From Desulfuromonas sp. (lineage in GTDB: Bacteria > Desulfobacterota > Desulfuromonadia > Desulfuromonadales > UBA2294), in contig PKUH01000014.1 of assembly GCA_002869615.1 (NCBI GenBank), forward strand, positions 1-47,117: a stretch of DNA of 47,117 nt, read 5' to 3'. Each line of letters opens with the position of its first letter. Within the stretch, counting starts at the first letter, position 1. The notes below the pieces were generated by a model. That model saw nothing but the letters and a program-made list of their open reading frames with translations, had not been told where the DNA came from and ran no database searches. A program made the translations under genes and the position numbers. Positions 23,258 to 39,383 of the stretch are shown one piece after another.

Positions 23258-23334
23258 CGGGATGTAGCGCAGTCTGGTAGCGCACTTGACTGGGGGTCAA
23301 GTGGTCGCTGGTTCGAATCCAGTCATCCCGACCA
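23258..23334 (+). tRNA. tRNA-Pro (anticodon GGG)
   Basis: Complete 77-nt tRNA with encoded CCA. The acceptor stem is CGGGATG/CATCCCG. The anticodon stem CTTGA/TCAAG encloses loop CTGGGGG, giving anticodon GGG for proline codon CCC (and CCU). The T arm contains GGTTCGAATCC. It is followed at once by a perfect terminator. An accessory region begins downstream, so this tRNA is a candidate integration site. Confidence 0.95.
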
Positions 23335-23340
23335 TTCCAG

Positions 23341-23376
23341 AAAACGGAAGTGATTACAATCACTTCCGTTTTTTTA
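23341..23376 (+). terminator. Rho-independent terminator after tRNA-Pro
   Basis: Perfect 13-bp stem: AAACGGAAGTGAT and ATCACTTCCGTTT around the 4-nt loop TACA, then a run of seven T. The A-run on its other side means it could work on both strands. Confidence 0.93.
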
Positions 23377-23380
23377 TCGC

Positions 23381-23408
23381 TTGTCTTCAGAGGAAACAGA
23401 ATTATAAT
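23381..23408 (+). promoter_or_regulatory. Candidate promoter of the PilZ gene
   Basis: TTGTCT (23381-23386), 16-nt spacer, TATAAT (23403-23408), just after the tRNA terminator and 35 nt before the first possible start of the PilZ gene. Confidence 0.5.
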
Positions 23409-23443
23409 ATAAAGCATACATAAACAAAGAGTTTGCCGGTTTC

Positions 23444-23800
23444 ATGCGGGGTTCAATATATAAAGCCATGACTGAGAAAAGAACCGGACAGGATAAACGC
23501 GTCAATATCAAGCTGACGGTAAACTTCGGGACCAGGGATATCAGCAATCTCGGATTTACTGAAGATATATCCGCGTCCGGAATATTCCTGAAAACAGCGA
23601 GAGTATATCCGGTTGGCACAAACCTGAAAATAGAGATTACTACTGATGATGGAGAGATTATCCGGATACTGGGATACGTCCATTGGTCAAAAGAGGTTCC
23701 ACCCAACCTCGTATGGACTGTCAATGATGCGGGGATGGGTATACAGATCATCCGGTTTGTATGTGGACAGGATATCTACTTCAGGCTTTTAAAAGAGTGA
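23444..23800 (+). CDS. PilZ-domain protein
   Basis: Single-domain c-di-GMP receptor candidate of 118 residues. PilZ signatures: a basic cluster near the N terminus (KRTGQDKRV, in the place of RxxxR) and D-x-S-x-x-G as DISASGIFL, followed by the barrel (GTNLKIEITTDDGE, GYVHW, GMGIQI). The basic cluster is not an exact RxxxR, so binding is likely but unproven. Starts at 23444 or ATG 23468 are possible; neither has a clear binding site. It is followed after 20 nt by a small exported protein gene. Confidence 0.82.
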   Translation: MRGSIYKAMTEKRTGQDKRVNIKLTVNFGTRDISNLGFTEDISASGIFLKTARVYPVGTNLKIEITTDDGEIIRILGYVHWSKEVPPNLVWTVNDAGMGIQIIRFVCGQDIYFRLLKE

Positions 23801-23820
23801 AGTAAAGGAGAGGAAGCGGA

Positions 23821-24162
23821 ATGTTTGGGAAGGTAGGCACTGTATCGATTACAATACTTATGCTGAGCGCAATACTGCTGCCGGCAACCCCGGTAAACGC
23901 TGAATACCGGTTCACAGACGGCACGGAAATGGATATCCAATGGTATGAACAGGAGAATAAGATTCTCAACAACAAGGTCTGCTTCAATTACGAGAAAGAT
24001 CGAAGAAAATATCGGCAATGCCGACGTAAGGCAAAAGACTATTTCCGCGAAGAGTGCGACTTTTATGAAATAAAAATCAGAAACACCAAGAAGAAAAAAA
24101 GACACATCTACCAGGACGACAAAGAAAAGTTCTGTTCAGCCTTCGAATCCTACCAACCCTAG
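23821..24162 (+). CDS. Small exported four-cysteine protein (W-x6-IL-x3-VCFNY family)
   Basis: No known family recognised. A signal peptide (cleavage near VNA, residue 27) precedes a charged mature domain with cysteines at 54, 67, 79 and 105. The pattern W41-x6-IL-x3-V-C-F-N-Y, then CRRKA and F-x-EEC, recurs in the gene at 24354-24776 with the same spacing for the first three cysteines (13 and 12 residues). The two are therefore paralogues. The mature protein is rich in Lys/Arg/Glu and probably helical, with two disulfides in the periplasm. GGAGAGGAAG precedes the ATG. It is probably co-transcribed with the PilZ gene. Confidence 0.78.
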   Translation: MFGKVGTVSITILMLSAILLPATPVNAEYRFTDGTEMDIQWYEQENKILNNKVCFNYEKDRRKYRQCRRKAKDYFREECDFYEIKIRNTKKKKRHIYQDDKEKFCSAFESYQP

Positions 24163-24250
24163 AAAATAATCAAATAATGTAAGAAAAATGTAAGATTTCC
24201 ACTGTATAATAAGATGATTTTGAACAACATTGAGGGAGGGGGCCTGAACG

Positions 24251-24439
24251 ATGCGTGGTCATTTGAAAGATGAAATTTACTGTGGTAACTATACTACGAA
24301 AGTTGTTCATGATATTACTCGGGAAAAAACCGAATGCCAGCTGAAGGGATGTATTGAAAATGGTGAGGATATTCCTTTTGAGTCTCTGGAATTGGCAGAA
24401 AAAGCCGGTTATAAAAAATGCGGGTTCTGCCTGCCATAA
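24251..24439 (+). CDS. Ada-like zinc-binding mini-protein
   Basis: 62-residue protein resembling the metal-binding domain found in Ada and at the C terminus of some nucleases. The signature is the end: ESLELAEKAGYKKCGFCLP, matching the family's 'S-x-x-x-A-x-x-AGY-x-x-C-x-x-C-x-P' pattern. Cysteines are at 11, 29, 34, 57 and 60; Cys29 or 34 with Cys57 and Cys60 and His20 are the likely zinc ligands. GGAGGGGG precedes the ATG. No enzymatic domain is attached, so it may be a stand-alone DNA- or protein-binding knuckle. It overlaps the start region of the next gene. Confidence 0.72.
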   Translation: MRGHLKDEIYCGNYTTKVVHDITREKTECQLKGCIENGEDIPFESLELAEKAGYKKCGFCLP

Positions 24440-24776
24440 TATTCGCGCAGCTTTACTCGTCGTTTTGATATGTGCAGTGAGTGCAGCAGCGGTCGCCGCC
24501 CCGGTGATCGATCCGAGTCAGTTACCCGTTGAGACGGACGCACCAGAGCCACTTGAAGTGCTCTGGAAAGAACGTTCGGGAGAGATCCTCCTTGAAACTG
24601 TCTGCTTTAATTATGCAGATGCTCCAGATAAAAAAGAGGGGTGTCGGAAACTGGCCTTGAAGAAATTTAAAGAGGAGTGTGCGCGCAACAAGGAACTCTA
24701 TCTCGATTTCTACTACAAGAGATACAAAGAGGCAATGCACAAGTACTGTGATGCTGCAGACGACTTCGGAAAATGA
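24354..24776 (+). CDS. Four-cysteine exported protein, paralogue, start uncertain
   Basis: Paralogue of the protein at 23821-24162: W71-x6-IL-x3-VCFNY, CRKLA, F-x-EEC and a final Cys132. Cysteines 84, 97 and 109 have the same spacing as in the first protein. From the ATG at 24354, about 30 unrelated residues precede a good hydrophobic signal core (RAALLVVLICAVSAAAVAA), and that stretch overlaps the upstream zinc mini-protein gene in another frame. Another ATG at 24418 opens a frame MRVLPAIIFAQLYSSF that stops at 24466 and would make a normal signal peptide start if shifted by one base. So the start is either an unusual internal codon (for example ATT 24441), or the gene carries an early frameshift or sequence error. 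The mature domain is intact. Confidence 0.6.
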   Translation: MKMVRIFLLSLWNWQKKPVIKNAGSACHNIRAALLVVLICAVSAAAVAAPVIDPSQLPVETDAPEPLEVLWKERSGEILLETVCFNYADAPDKKEGCRKLALKKFKEECARNKELYLDFYYKRYKEAMHKYCDAADDFGK

Positions 24777-24887
24777 TTCATGGCGGTGTTAATCCATTAA
24801 ATCCAGCAACTTCACTTCATCACAAACCCTTGCACCAACTTCGCTCCATACAGAAATATTTTAAGGCCCAGGAAGAAGAGGGGGCAT

Positions 24888-25559
24888 GTGGTTGATTTAA
24901 TGCAATTTATTGACAGTCTAAGTGCTGAAGGGACAACCTTAATACTTCTTTTATTCACAGCACTAGTTTTTGGTTTTTTAATCGGGCGAATTAAGGCCTA
25001 TGTCTTTCATAATCGAGGAGAAGCTTTATTATCGAGTAAAATAAAGCAGAAGTTCCCACCTCCAGACTACCACCTGTTAAACCATGTCACACTTCCGACG
25101 AAGGACGGCTCTACTCAAATAGATCACATTCTAGTATCTCGTTATGGTGTATTTGTAATCGAAACAAAAAATTACAAAGGATGGATTTTCGCGAGTGAAA
25201 ATGCTCGCCAATGGACGCAGGTCTTATACAATACGAAATTCAGGTTTCAGAATCCTTTACGCCAAAACTACAAACATCTTTGTGTTGTTAGGGAACTACT
25301 TGATTTCTTGCCACCAGAAAACATTAATCCGGCAGTTGTCTTCACTGGTGATGCATCATTCAAGAAAGGTATTCCAGATGGGGTATTTACGTTATCTGAC
25401 TTTTTAGACTACGTTACTAGTCGCCCAACTGAGGTAATGTCTTTAAATCGTGTCCAGTTTTGCGTGGGAAGATTGGAAATGAACCGATATTCAGTCACCA
25501 AAGAAACAGATCTTCAACACATCAGTAATCTGAGACGTCGGTATGGAGATTTTAAGTAG
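24888..25559 (+). CDS. Membrane-anchored NERD-domain protein
   Basis: 223-residue protein with one N-terminal transmembrane helix (about 17-36) and a NERD (nuclease-related) domain after it. Family features: GEALLSSKI, then IDHILVSRYGVFVIETKNYKG with the restriction-nuclease-like D and E-x-K (IDH...ETKNY), and FQNPLRQNYKH. These match the catalytic core of restriction-like folds, so nuclease activity is plausible. The GTG at 24888 follows GAGGGGG; ATG at 24900 is an alternative. Base composition from here to about 27000 is visibly AT-richer than in the core genes, which points to transfer. The role is unknown; NERD proteins occur in mobile and defence contexts. Confidence 0.82.
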   Translation: MVDLMQFIDSLSAEGTTLILLLFTALVFGFLIGRIKAYVFHNRGEALLSSKIKQKFPPPDYHLLNHVTLPTKDGSTQIDHILVSRYGVFVIETKNYKGWIFASENARQWTQVLYNTKFRFQNPLRQNYKHLCVVRELLDFLPPENINPAVVFTGDASFKKGIPDGVFTLSDFLDYVTSRPTEVMSLNRVQFCVGRLEMNRYSVTKETDLQHISNLRRRYGDFK

Positions 25560-25621
25560 CTTGAATTCGACATTGACGCATACGTATATATGCAAGCGAA
25601 AATTTACTTGAGTAAAGAAGA

Positions 25622-25655
25622 GGGCGGCCAGATATTTGACCGCCTTTGTTATTTG
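25622..25655 (+). terminator. Probable terminator after the NERD gene
   Basis: GGCGG (25623-25627) pairs with CCGCC (25640-25644), extended by CA/TG across one mismatch, followed by TTTGTTATTT. The rest of 25560-25709 shows no gene. Confidence 0.5.
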
Positions 25656-25709
25656 ATGTAATGTACTGAAAATACTATGAATTACTCTAATATTTGCAGG
25701 GGGTGTTTT

Positions 25710-26231
25710 ATGATGAAAAATATATTGATAGTAGTTTTTTTGACAATCTGTGTTTGTTCAACAGTTTGGGCAGAAAATGAGGTAGAGAAAGTTTCTTATA
25801 AGAAAATGCTCAACCTCAACGCGCAAAACATTCGTCAGATTAAAGAAGGGATGACAATCCCTGAGGTAGTAACCATAATGATGGACTTGCAGGCAAAAGT
25901 AAGGAGCGGTCCATTGAATAATCCTTGGAGAATAGAGTATAAGGGGGATACGGAAATATATCACTATTTAACTCGTGGCCATCCTCCGTTTTTACCCATT
26001 CTTGAGAACCAGGCAATTCCTGTCATATTCGTTGATGGTAAAGTTACAGCTGTCGGTAGACAATTCCTGAAAGAAGCCCGAAGTAAAGCAAGTCTGGATG
26101 AGCCTTTAAACGAAGCACCTGAAGGGACTTTAGAAGAGCGGTTAGCCAAACTTAAAGACTTGCGCGAAAAAGGGCTTATTGATCAACAAGAATATGATTC
26201 CCAAAAGAAACGAATTTTAGACAGCATATAA
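25710..26231 (+). CDS. Exported protein with C-terminal SHOCT motif
   Basis: 173-residue protein. A signal peptide (hydrophobic to about residue 21, cleavage near VWA) precedes a domain with IRQIKEGMTIPEVVTIMMD, the 'GM-x-x-x-E-V' start seen in small SmpA/DUF3192-like periplasmic folds. The last 34 residues are a SHOCT helix pair (EERLAKLKDLREKGLIDQQE), an oligomerisation motif common in mobile and phage proteins. The ATG at 25710 has AGGGGGTG upstream. A longer start at 25677 adds a non-signal stretch. The domain match is approximate. Confidence 0.75.
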   Translation: MMKNILIVVFLTICVCSTVWAENEVEKVSYKKMLNLNAQNIRQIKEGMTIPEVVTIMMDLQAKVRSGPLNNPWRIEYKGDTEIYHYLTRGHPPFLPILENQAIPVIFVDGKVTAVGRQFLKEARSKASLDEPLNEAPEGTLEERLAKLKDLREKGLIDQQEYDSQKKRILDSI

Positions 26232-26261
26232 TAACGACGCGTATTAATAATGAGGGAATTT

Positions 26262-26582
26262 ATGCACTTGAAATTAGTGTGGGGTATTGTCTTAATAGTT
26301 CTAGGTTTAACCCTTTCCTTGTATTGTCTCTTCAATTATCTCCACTTTTCTGGATATGAATATCTTTTCCATGATCTTTCATCCAAAGCTGACGTTGCTT
26401 TAAATCTCGCAATATTTGCTAAAGACGAAAATCAATTAAAAGAGTTCTCTGAAAGAATCATGATTCAATATATTGCTTTTGGAGTACTTGGTGTCATCAT
26501 GCAGATTGTTGGATCATTTTGGATCAGAGACTACACTCAGCATGCTGAGAGGATGCAAAGGCTTTGTAGTGATAAGTTATAA
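26262..26582 (+). CDS. Small two-helix membrane protein
   Basis: No family recognised. The 106-residue protein has two hydrophobic segments: about residues 5-26 (LVWGIVLIVLGLTLSLYCLF) and about 67-88 (YIAFGVLGVIMQIVGSFWI), separated by a loop of about 40 residues. The ATG at 26262 has GAGGGA 5 nt upstream, whereas the ATG at 26250 has no site. It lies 30 nt after the SHOCT protein gene and may be in the same transcript. Confidence 0.62.
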   Translation: MHLKLVWGIVLIVLGLTLSLYCLFNYLHFSGYEYLFHDLSSKADVALNLAIFAKDENQLKEFSERIMIQYIAFGVLGVIMQIVGSFWIRDYTQHAERMQRLCSDKL

Positions 26583-26618
26583 AGATGATCTTATTGAATC
26601 TTTTTGGAGGGGTGTCAA

Positions 26619-26999
26619 ATGCGATCAATTCTCGTTGTACTTTTCTTTTCACTGATACTACCAGCTTCAGCTTTTTCAATTCCCCTTAAAATCACATCTT
26701 ATGTCAGGGAAACAGGAATTATTGACGGCGCGACAATAACCTCTACTGGCTACCTTGAATTTTCTGGAATTAGCCATGGCGAAATTATTGTTAAGAGAGG
26801 TGGCAATTTACTTTCCACAGGAGTTGCAAAAGGTGGTATCTCCAATAATGGTGGAACTGTTAAAATTACCGGCATAACTCCTGTTGTTTTTGCAAATTCA
26901 GGAACGACAACGATTCACGGCATTGTAGATATTGTTAAAGGGAACGGGAAAGTAATATATAAAAGTGGTGCCGTCGTTGGAGGAAAGAAAATCAAATAA
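26619..26999 (+). CDS. Exported short beta-helix-like protein
   Basis: 126 residues with a signal peptide (RSILVVLFFSLILPASAFS). The mature part is a series of short beta turns rich in Gly, Ile, Val and Thr: GATITSTGYLEFSG, ISHGEIIVKRGGNLLSTG, GGISNNGGTVKITG. This resembles the repeating coils of a beta-solenoid (bactofilin- or autotransporter-like passenger), but is too short to assign. GGAGGGG lies 7 nt before the ATG. An in-frame TTG start at 26604 is less likely. Confidence 0.6.
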   Translation: MRSILVVLFFSLILPASAFSIPLKITSYVRETGIIDGATITSTGYLEFSGISHGEIIVKRGGNLLSTGVAKGGISNNGGTVKITGITPVVFANSGTTTIHGIVDIVKGNGKVIYKSGAVVGGKKIK

Positions 27000-27088
27000 A
27001 TCGACAATGACGCATAACGCATAGTTGTGTAACTTAGTAATGATTTCAGGTACATAGCTCTCCCTACCCAAAATCGCTGACCAGGGCT

Positions 27089-27117
27089 TGTCAGACAAAA
27101 GTGCCGAATGTCTGACA
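27089..27117. repeat. Inverted pair of TGTCTGACA downstream of the RHH pair
   Basis: TGTCAGACA (27089-27097) and TGTCTGACA (27109-27117) form a 9-bp inverted repeat with an 11-nt loop, 7 nt beyond the stop of the minus-strand gene. There is no T-run, so it is not a typical terminator. A third copy lies upstream of the RHH gene at 27929. Confidence 0.55.
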
Positions 27118-27123
27118 CAAATG

Positions 27124-27666
27124 TCAAATTTTTTGTGAATAACCTCCTTTCTGATTCTTCGAATTTAGCCTTCCAGAGGCACGAACGATCATCAAAACGA
27201 CCTCGTGGTTGGCCCAGGGATGATTTTGCCGTTTGAGGGCCTGATTCGTTGCTTTAATCGCCTCATGGCGATCCATTCCCTGCTCGAAAAGCTGGTCGAA
27301 GAGGGAGAGAACCTTGCCCTTGAAAGCTTCGGTCTCCAGCCGGCGCTGCTCGATCTCCACTGGATCGACCGCCTTATGCTCGGCCAATTTCATCCGTGAT
27401 TGACGCTCTACAACCCGCATAAACTCGTGCATTGTCGACAAAAAGGTCATGAACGACTTGGTCATTCCGAGCGGTAACGAGAACACCAAATCAACGCGGC
27501 CATCGCGGATCTGCTTCACCTGGTAATCGATCGAGGCGTCAGGGTCCAGGAGGTCGAACGAGCGAATCGGATCTGAGAAATGACGATCGATGTCTTGGAG
27601 GATCCGATCCGCATCCGGTTCACGGCCTCCGGGCGAAGCTCCAGCTGCGGATCGCTTAGTCGTCAT
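27124..27666 (-). CDS. RHH-associated helical protein, unknown function
   Basis: I do not recognise a family. The 180-residue product has an acidic/Asp-rich N-terminal part with DILDPDASIDYQVKQ-like strands (about 35-60), then long helices (about 65-160). The ATG at 27666 overlaps the end of the upstream ribbon-helix-helix gene by 11 nt, so the two are coupled. The pairing of a small DNA-binding protein with a helical partner resembles partition, mobilisation or toxin-antitoxin modules, but no motif confirms any of these. GC content is higher than in the preceding AT-rich genes. Confidence 0.65.
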   Translation of the reverse strand: MTTKRSAAGASPGGREPDADRILQDIDRHFSDPIRSFDLLDPDASIDYQVKQIRDGRVDLVFSLPLGMTKSFMTFLSTMHEFMRVVERQSRMKLAEHKAVDPVEIEQRRLETEAFKGKVLSLFDQLFEQGMDRHEAIKATNQALKRQNHPWANHEVVLMIVRASGRLNSKNQKGGYSQKI

Positions 27667-27877
27667 GACTCAGAACCGTGAGCCCCGGATCTCGAGGAGT
27701 GAACTGCCGCTCATCGAGAAACCTGACGACCAGGTGACGGACCAGGGCCGAGACAGCAATCGATTCATGCCGAGCGATCGACTGTAACCGATCCGCATCC
27801 TGGGACGTGAGCCGGAAGGTGACACGCTCGGGGTAGAAGAGGGACGATCCCCGTCCAAATTGCCGTTTTTTTGTCAT
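27656..27877 (-). CDS. Ribbon-helix-helix (CopG-like) DNA-binding protein
   Basis: 73-residue protein with the RHH pattern: a strand PERVTFRLTSQDADRLQ, then helix A (SIARHESIAVSALVRHLV) and helix B (VRFLDER). RVTFRL is the antiparallel strand that enters the major groove. GGAGG lies before the ATG. TGTCTGACA at 27929-27937, about 52 nt upstream, is a candidate operator. Such proteins act as antitoxins, plasmid copy or transfer regulators. Its partner is the overlapping downstream gene. Confidence 0.8.
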   Translation of the reverse strand: MTKKRQFGRGSSLFYPERVTFRLTSQDADRLQSIARHESIAVSALVRHLVVRFLDERQFTPRDPGLTVLSHDD

Positions 27878-27928
27878 ACAAAAACCTCCGAAAATTGCGT
27901 TTCTGTACTACGAAAACGCCAGTCTGTT

Positions 27929-27937
27929 TGTCTGACA
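27929..27937. promoter_or_regulatory. Third TGTCTGACA copy, candidate RHH operator
   Basis: TGTCTGACA upstream of the RHH gene, with an extra half-site AGTCTG starting at 27921. The same motif occurs twice downstream of the operon (27089, 27109). Autoregulation is an inference. Confidence 0.4.
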
Positions 27938-28036
27938 CGCTAAACTATTGAAATCATTAGAGCGCCATATCGTAAGTTACTGAAATCCTTTAAAAGTAGT
28001 GATTCCCATAAATGGGACTTAGTTCGGGTGTTACTG

Positions 28037-28297
28037 TTACCCGAAGTAGGATTTCGGCACCTGGTCAAAAATCAGCTGACCGAGATCCGCGATCTCCTGG
28101 TCGGTGTAGCCGTAAAGTTTCAACTCCTCGATGAACAGATCCGCGATCAGTTCCAGGTTGTGATCCGGGATCGCTTCGTCACAGATCCTCTGATTGATCT
28201 TGCAGGATCGGTGTAGGGCATTCGAGTACCTGGTACTGAACTCCGGATCATCGAGGAGGTGATCCTGGTCTTTTGAAAGATCGACTTGTGTGTTCAT
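28037..28297 (-). CDS. Small acidic protein downstream of a structured leader
   Basis: 86-residue protein with no family recognised. It is acidic and largely helical (DLSKDQDHLLDDPEF, then DHNLELIADLFIEELKLYG and DQEIADLGQLIFDQVP). Two cysteines (SCKINQRIC) lie close together. The ATG at 28297 has GAAAGGAAA directly upstream, and an inverted-repeat element ends just before that site. A longer start at 28363 would run into the element and is rejected. It is probably part of the mobile-type region with the RHH pair. Confidence 0.62.
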   Translation of the reverse strand: MNTQVDLSKDQDHLLDDPEFSTRYSNALHRSCKINQRICDEAIPDHNLELIADLFIEELKLYGYTDQEIADLGQLIFDQVPKSYFG

Positions 28298-28313
28298 GTT
28301 TTTCCTTTCGTTG

Positions 28314-28439
28314 ATCAATCCACAGTCAGACGCTCGCAGGGCGTACCGGGAGCAGCAGGGCATGCGGCCCGTATTCGCCGCCTGCCGCTCCCGGTACTGC
28401 GCGCTAACGGCCAGAGGCCGTCACTGCCTGTGGATTGAT
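28314..28439 (-). ncRNA. Cloverleaf-like inverted-repeat element (leader of the 86-residue gene)
   Basis: The outer stem pairs ATCAATCCACAG (28314-28325) with CTGTGGATTGAT (28428-28439), continued after one mismatch by CAG/CTG. Inside are three hairpins: ACGC/GCGT (28330-28344), a long central stem ACCGGGAGC/GCTCCCGGT (28345-28353 with 28387-28395) extended by GCAGG/CCTGC, and ACGGCC/GGCCGT (28407-28421). All are seen directly in the sequence. Whether it acts as RNA, as single-stranded DNA or as a recombination site is not known. Strand is given for the downstream gene. Confidence 0.5.
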
Positions 28440-28440
28440 T

Positions 28441-29069
28441 TCTGATTATGTACTCTCTCTACACATAACGTCGCATAAGATATATTATGTAAACTAATAA
28501 GTTATAGAAAGCATCACAGAAAGGTGAAGATGAGTTGGCGGGGATAGCCTATTAATTTAGTGGGCAATTTGACAGTGAAATGTCGATATCGCCTATCGGA
28601 TGAAAACGATACCAAAAAGGCCTATACCAAACCCTTGCCCAGGTCAAGAAAACCGCTTAGAAGGCAAATTTCGCAGCCTATTATTTGCGCAAAACCCTAT
28701 AATTTCAATCATTTATAAATTTTATACCGAGAACAGGATATGTCAAAAATAACGGCTGCATCATTCGTAGCGAAGCGACCCTGGCAGAATTTTCGTTCTA
28801 TTGTTCATTTCGAATCCATACGAAAGCCGTTCCGGATTATTGATCGCACCCAGTATATGGATAATAACGGCAATCCATTGGCGTAGCTGACACTTTGTCA
28901 TCAAATGCGATCATAGTGAACAAGTAAACGCCTTTCAGGGAATCGAAATTTGCTGGACAGGATTGACAAAACAGGCGAGGCAGGGAATTCAGCCGGAACA
29001 GACCTGCACAGGCTAATCACCGAAACGGAACCTCCCTCCCCCTCTTTTCACTCTGCGCCCTCTTCTGAG
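28441..29069. other. Gap of about 630 nt with no clear gene
   Basis: AT-rich and without convincing coding signal. ATTATGT occurs at 28445-28451 and 28484-28490 with the inverse ACATAA at 28463-28468, a possible operator upstream of the structured element. One short open frame is listed separately. recG ends at the right edge. Confidence 0.5.
28740..28886 (+). CDS. Possible small ORF, 48 codons
   Basis: Open from ATG 28740 to TAG 28884-28886. The product has mixed hydrophilic composition (ends in DRTQYMDNNGNPLA) and no recognised domain. AGGAT abuts the ATG, too close for an efficient site. It may be a gene remnant or chance. It contains the 10-nt TTCGAATCCA also found in the tRNA-Pro T arm. 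Confidence 0.2.
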   Translation: MSKITAASFVAKRPWQNFRSIVHFESIRKPFRIIDRTQYMDNNGNPLA

Positions 29070-39210: not shown

Positions 39211-39241
39211 CTGTATCCTCCCCGTTCTGATAATCAGGCAC

Positions 39242-39276
39242 AAAAAAATACCTTTTCGCACACGCGCAAAAAGGTA
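39242..39276 (-). terminator. Attenuator terminator in the pyr leader
   Basis: On the minus strand TACCTTTT and AAAAGGTA (within 39249-39276) form a stem with an inner CGC/GCG pair and a small bulge, followed by seven U. It lies about 32 nt before the pyrR ATG. Its left arm ACCTTTT can instead pair with AAAAGGT from the PyrR-loop stem, giving an antiterminator. Confidence 0.9.
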
Positions 39277-39315
39277 CTGTTATCATTTTCTGGTGAATCC
39301 GGATCATATTTACCA

Positions 39316-39348
39316 CCTTTTCTGACCTCTCTGGATCAGATTAAAAGG
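39316..39348 (-). promoter_or_regulatory. PyrR-binding RNA stem-loop (anti-antiterminator)
   Basis: The minus strand contains GATCCAGAGAGGTC, matching the PyrR recognition consensus ARUCCNGNGAGGYU. It is carried on a stem: CCTTTT, AA bulge and TCTGA pair with TCAGA and AAAAGG. Binding of PyrR with UMP would hold this stem and let the downstream terminator form. Confidence 0.9.
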
Positions 39349-39383
39349 ATTGGACCGTTAAAGGTCTAATTTCGATTTTGTGG

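Follow-up and report, generated by a model that had tools for sequence, protein, structure and literature searches.

IMEX and inovirus satellites are both already known. Two reviews describe several classes of IMEX, in all of which the XerC arm is kept (PMC5357621, PMC4246890), and in TLC-phi the incoming single-stranded DNA is converted to double-stranded DNA ahead of Xer integration (PMC4246890). Complementary-strand initiation on rolling-circle intermediates is carried out by host enzymes and does not need Rep (PMC5714925), and an autonomous plasmid acting as an inovirus satellite is the subject of work cited in PMC11389934. The literature that we searched holds no description of Rep-less dif elements of 1.3-1.9 kb or of the cloverleaf signal described below, which is weak evidence given that most subscription journals lay outside it. 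The stretch analysed here (the window; 47,117 nt from Desulfuromonas sp.) carries an apparent 1.46-kb Xer-exploiting integrative element at dif.

An apparent Xer-exploiting element at dif

The features of the element are as follows.

27007..28478, no strand assigned: proposed Rep-less Xer-exploiting mini-element, a 1461-bp repeat unit
27007..27034, plus strand: candidate outer end (degraded attL), ATGACGCATAA-CGCATA-GTTGTGTAACT
27124..27666, minus strand: 180-aa protein, hallmark of the mini-elements (relatives in the order, tree, structure model)
27656..27877, minus strand: 73-aa ribbon-helix-helix-like protein (weak NikA-like, RHH_5 and RHH_1 matches below cut-offs)
28037..28297, minus strand: 86-aa ORF, family unassigned, in the slot where mini-elements carry their variable gene
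28301..28309, minus strand: ribosome-binding site GAAAGGAAA of the 86-aa ORF
28468..28495, plus strand: dif site, inner end of the element (XerC arm 28468-28478, centre 28479-28484, XerD arm 28485-28495)

The dif site (ACGTCGCATAA-GATATA-TTATGTAAACT) lies 28 nt past the closing stem of the fold described below, and nothing else in the genome matches the dif pattern. It resembles the published dif of Geobacter sulfurreducens (ACGTCCCATAAGATATATTATGTAAAGT; PMC2731167), sits at the cumulative GC skew maximum of the profiled stretch, and adjoins recG, as it does in several relatives. A genome of the same genus (G001) has the identical 28-mer dif and lacks the element. The candidate outer end agrees with dif at 9/11 positions of the XerC arm, 3/6 of the centre and 5/11 of the XerD arm, compared with 17/17 in most relatives. 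It is the sole plus-strand site besides dif in the 47 kb with at least nine XerC-arm matches and at least 17 in total, and a match this good within 300 nt has a probability of about 0.003. It lies 117 nt beyond the stop codon of the 180-aa gene (about 117-168 nt in relatives), and GC content climbs nearby from about 0.40 to 0.55.

Three further features were seen in the window. A 17/19 direct repeat (25564-25582 and 26998-27016, spacing 1434 bp) includes the XerC-like GACGCATA and might represent the outer end of a former insertion, older and more decayed. From tRNA-Pro to the element (23258-27000) the DNA is AT-rich, encodes NERD, PilZ and SHOCT proteins together with small ORFs without family, and is possibly another island. 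Rfam also recognises a PyrR binding site at 39241-39351 on the minus strand.

Like an IMEX, the element has an intact dif at one end (28468-28495) and no recombinase of its own, its only three ORFs being those of the 180-aa, ribbon-helix-helix-like and 86-aa proteins. No Rep, integrase, coat or morphogenesis gene is recognisable in it, so that it can probably spread only if others help. The window proteins gave no confident family in Pfam, PHROGs, NCBIfam or PADLOC. The 180-aa protein is predicted to form a beta hairpin, long helices and a helical C-terminus (mean pLDDT 71, about 92 in residues 110-160); a PDB fold search with this model returned nothing significant, and the protein was found neither in plasmids nor in IMG/VR. 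In size and layout the element is like the 1450-bp element of Desulfuromusa kysingii, and relatives have a ribbon-helix-helix-like ORF at the equivalent place. The 86-aa protein has no homologue in 147 genomes or in plasmids, and no detectable relationship to the 81-aa protein in the equivalent slot of D. kysingii. Neither the window's genome (a draft, 98% complete) nor that of D. kysingii contains Zot, Rep_trans or a G2P-type rep; a helper would therefore have to come from outside, or the window copy is stranded.

A fold on the minus strand

Adjacent to the dif end lies a strongly structured stretch with the following parts.

28314..28439, minus strand: cloverleaf with closing stem 28314-28329 / 28424-28439 (RNA/DNA folding, arm complementarity)
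28428-28434 (TCCACAG, minus-strand reading) and 28319-28325 (CTGTGGA): conserved cloverleaf core within the closing stem
28405..28423, minus strand: short 8-bp hairpin within the cloverleaf (minimum-energy fold)
28343..28397, minus strand: long hairpin with 3' bulges within the cloverleaf (17-nt arms 28343-28359 / 28381-28397)

An earlier note on this DNA had described a cloverleaf-like element upstream of an ORF, and folding confirms a structured element there. The minus strand at 28310-28443 reaches -82.7 kcal/mol as RNA versus -51.5 +/- 4.0 in shuffles (z -7.75, and -9.2 with DNA parameters), and none of 200 shuffles folds equally well. The closing stem, given in that note as 12-16 bp, has arms of 16 nt each with 94% complementarity. 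It does enclose hairpins, of which the minimum-energy fold has two (one short, one long and bulged) and not the three proposed. The ribosome-binding site and the 86-aa ORF agree with the earlier description, the cloverleaf ending 5 nt ahead of the former. The fold was held not to be a known tRNA, and indeed ARAGORN finds no tRNA or tmRNA at it; no Rfam family matches it at gathering score, and the folds of relatives have no Rfam match even at a laxer threshold. A folded attP(+) of the CTX-phi type was also considered and rejected, since it requires two inverted dif-like sites and no XerC- or XerD-like arm lies within the fold.

Mini-elements at the dif sites of Desulfuromonadia

Relatives of the 180-aa protein are encoded in 22 of the 136 genomes of the order and are absent from the same-genus genome. 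Wherever dif is on the examined stretch, these genes adjoin it or its outer repeat. A search for copies of each local dif located stacked elements of three tiers.

Tier 1: inovirus prophages, 5.8-8.5 kb, with Zot in G139, G073, G069, G140 and G051
Tier 2: Rep-only elements, about 2.3-3.6 kb, initiator either HUH G2P-type or Rep_trans
Tier 3, mini-element: Desulfuromusa kysingii, 1450 bp, perfect ends
Tier 3, mini-element: G123, 1898 bp
Tier 3, mini-elements: G138, 1726 and 1697 bp
Tier 3, mini-elements: G170, 1310 and 1646 bp
Tier 3, mini-elements: G185, 1619 and 1567 bp
Tier 3, mini-element: G172, 1487 bp, XerC arm 9/11
Tier 3, mini-element: G047, 1621 bp, mirror type, centre and XerD arm 16/17
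Tier 3, mini-element: G003, 702 bp, truncated

Besides the window element there are thus 11 dif-bounded mini-elements in eight other genomes (0.7-1.9 kb, some in tandem), and in G139 a mini-element is stacked against the inovirus. The typical ends are an intact dif and an opposite copy of the XerC arm and centre with a diverged XerD arm, and several mini-elements have perfect 17-bp ends. They carry a gene for 160-217 aa and in most cases one of ribbon-helix-helix-like type, and the third gene varies or is missing. Genes for replication, integration or coat are not recognisable in the mini-elements of the nine genomes. Set against six homologues that are solitary or come from Rep elements, the 180-aa-type proteins of ten mini-elements formed one clade (support 100/99), although this clean clade depends on omitting two very long branches (G179_rep and G139_ino) and is blurred with them. 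Between tandem copies dS exceeds dN (0.33 and 0.012 in G138, 0.57 and 0.115 in G170, 0.051 and 0.003 in G185), a sign of purifying selection that speaks for a function kept up within the family; the window copy may still be immobile.

Five elements are mirror images, with the centre and XerD arm repeated (16-17/17) and the XerC arm diverged: two Zot inoviruses, two Rep elements and one mini-element (L066 8228-10580, L026 5751-7399, L120 3981-7571, L065 9408-17030, L071 1981-10487). Short homologues of the 180-aa protein (about 135-149 aa) lie 28-96 nt from dif and point away from it in 11 genomes (L030 6883-7323; also L059, L060, L061, L063 and L068). The outer repeat was not found in several of these genomes, some short homologues occur without other element genes, and on this pattern they may be leftovers or domesticated.

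The window locus might instead be a fossil: an inovirus or an Xer element with a Rep gene would have decayed, lost its other genes and become immobile. Its degraded outer end, the lack of a helper in its genome, the truncation of the 702-bp element and the solitary short homologues beside dif, which resemble leftovers, all point that way. Against it stand the single layout of mini-elements in many genera, their separate clade of 180-aa proteins, the purifying selection between tandem copies and the perfect 17-bp ends, evidence that bears on the family more than on the window copy. We regard this reading as unlikely, albeit the strongest of the alternatives to a helper-dependent mini-element.

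The cloverleaf in other mobile elements

Most mini-elements have their top structured stretch, or one of their two top ones, 30-150 nt from the dif end; in G185 the most structured stretch lies further in. A covariance model trained on seven cloverleaf copies, one of them the window copy (28311-28443, minus strand, 93 bits), found copies outside the training set in G015, G185 (two), G179, G172, G046, G095 (two) and G047, with roughly calibrated E-values per genome between 4e-10 and about 8e-3. The resulting 16 copies are distributed over mini-elements (eight), Rep-encoding dif elements (five) and conjugative elements (three), the last from two genomes, G095 (MobA-type relaxase and TrbL) and G046 (TraU, TraW and TrbC). 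In the Rep-encoding elements the cloverleaf is downstream of rep, often without a gene right behind it. The core, TCCAYAGG ... CGTYTSCYTGTGGR, encloses a long hairpin whose 3' bulge is often GCACGT. A weak match in G039 (E 0.044) has equal architecture, and a gene near it weakly resembles phage G2P proteins. Several kinds of mobile DNA form the cloverleaf as single strands; the fold is real and conserved.

The model motif is absent from the mini-elements of G138, G123 and G003, which have other folds instead, and the Zot inoviruses examined gave no convincing match (L069 at E 0.4 only). An exact DNA pattern of the core had no match in viral contigs, and one conjugative-element copy had only short, chance-like matches in plasmids. 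Searching the whole phylum with the model returned two weak matches without the core motif, which we judged to be chance. A short-word comparison of elements with and without Rep for a common nick site yielded pieces of dif, coding sequence and cloverleaf. We also observed a pair of cloverleafs, one on each strand with a spacing of about 500 nt, just behind trbL of a conjugative element (L105 5138-5213 and 5722-5887), and, in the strong dif-side fold of the 1898-bp mini-element (L024), a swapped order of the closing-stem motifs (CCTGTGG before TCCATAGG), as if permuted.

Selection on one strand

Across the 16 copies, standard pairs make up 89.8% of the closing stem, versus 76.4% when shuffled and 32-48% when slid. 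Its covariation score is 0.391 versus 0.173 shuffled (reached in 0 of 500), nine of 16 pairs have changed on both sides, and there are 26 G.T pairs versus 7 A.C. Kinship among the copies inflates the shuffle tests, and the slid control and wobble count weigh more. The called strand folds better in all 16 copies, an outcome that strand choice by the model favours, and it is the coding strand in each of the 13 dif-element copies. Covariation and wobble pairs favour selection on one single strand, and, as in ssi and sso, the conserved fold belongs to a single strand, in elements with a single-stranded DNA stage.

Proposed mechanism and alternatives

The signal is found with different initiators (G2P-type, Rep_trans, relaxase), so a host factor probably reads it. 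Taken with the host-run initiation of complementary strands and the conversion step of TLC-phi, this leads us to propose a single-strand origin: we consider it fairly probable that the cloverleaf is a host-read signal for initiating the complementary strand in an ultra-small, Rep-less, satellite-like element. The element would reside at dif via the host XerC/XerD system and become single-stranded after rolling-circle replication or transfer, whereupon the (+) coding strand would fold into the cloverleaf, where a primase, a primosome or the RNA polymerase of the host would begin the complementary strand. The resulting double-stranded circle would then be inserted at dif by XerCD. As no Rep, integrase or coat gene is recognisable, (+)-strand replication and transfer would be supplied by a helper, for example an inovirus, a conjugative element or a dif element with its own Rep. 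Binding to element DNA, to regulate or recruit, is the probable role of the 180-aa protein and of the ribbon-helix-helix protein. The priming role, the helper dependence and the mobility of the mini-element are what we infer from these comparisons. More tentatively, it is quite possible that Desulfuromonadia harbour satellites of 1.3-1.9 kb without replication, integration or coat genes, which borrow XerCD to integrate, the Rep and transfer machine of a helper, and a host-read cloverleaf origin that conjugative elements share with rolling-circle phages and plasmid-like elements.

The earlier note had offered three roles for the fold, and that of a single-stranded DNA signal as in plasmid leading regions is the best supported, given the coding-strand copies in rolling-circle elements, the copies in conjugative elements, the covariation and the wobble pairs on one strand. 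The cloverleaf itself is no recombination site, though dif is only 28 nt away, and a 5' leader did not hold up either, the signal being tied neither to the 86-aa gene, for which the 147 genomes offer no homologue, nor to any one gene. Of the checks it suggested, the covariance model finds copies in further genomes, the alignment has compensatory changes in the closing stem, and the association with the 86-aa gene family is absent. It would have given way had both other copies and covariation been lacking; both exist.

In filamentous phages imperfect hairpins act as packaging signals, and the cloverleaf might be one, an inovirus helper packaging the element while the complementary strand is begun elsewhere. 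Inoviruses of relatives occupy the same dif sites and the folded strand is the coding strand, yet relaxase- and T4SS-bearing conjugative elements also have the cloverleaf, and it scores convincingly in none of the Zot inoviruses examined, which makes this role rather doubtful. Domestication of the genes as a host locus acting at dif, e.g. by modulating Xer recombination, would suit the 135-149 aa homologues that 11 genomes have at 28-96 nt from dif, pointing away from it and in some cases with no other element gene; it is improbable in view of the patchy occurrence (22/136 genomes of the order), the tandem copies and end repeats, and the absence from the same-genus genome. An RNA leader controlling translation of the 86-aa gene fits the 5-nt distance to its ribosome-binding site and is very improbable, as that gene has no relatives and in Rep elements the fold stands downstream of rep, often with no gene right behind.

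If the proposed single-strand origin is real, a class of minimal dif-resident element is defined, together with a model, in sequence and structure, of a single-strand origin that serves unrelated mobile elements of one bacterial class. Few natural gene-bearing hitchhikers would be smaller than the mini-elements, and both the host enzyme that reads such signals outside model species and the limit of satellite stripping compatible with spread would become testable. In Desulfuromonadia, dif sites hold stacks of elements that were not found among the viral contigs or plasmids searched.

Comparison with known systems

RS1 and other inovirus satellites are likewise small, dif-resident, located beside filamentous prophages and devoid of morphogenesis genes, which the window element also lacks. 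RS1 has replication genes, whereas the mini-elements have none, no Rep is present in the window element, and none of the mini-element proteins matches RS1-type families. In its predicted activity the cloverleaf is like Frpo of F-like plasmids, a host-read folded single strand that starts the complementary strand. It is equally like sso and ssi, folded single strands read by the host that start the complementary strand (PMC5714925). It differs from all three in a sequence and architecture that match no Rfam family.

Among the known systems closest to the element as a whole are IMEX of the TLC-phi and GGI type (Vibrio, Neisseria), which also integrate at dif with no integrase of their own and keep the XerC arm and centre with a diverged XerD arm at one end (PMC5357621, PMC4246890). 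TLC-phi, however, has an autonomous replication module (PMC4246890) and the GGI spans 57 kb with a T4SS (PMC5357621), compared with 1.3-1.9 kb and no rep in the mini-elements. While TLC-phi and the GGI keep the XerC arm, some relatives are of the mirror type and keep the XerD arm.
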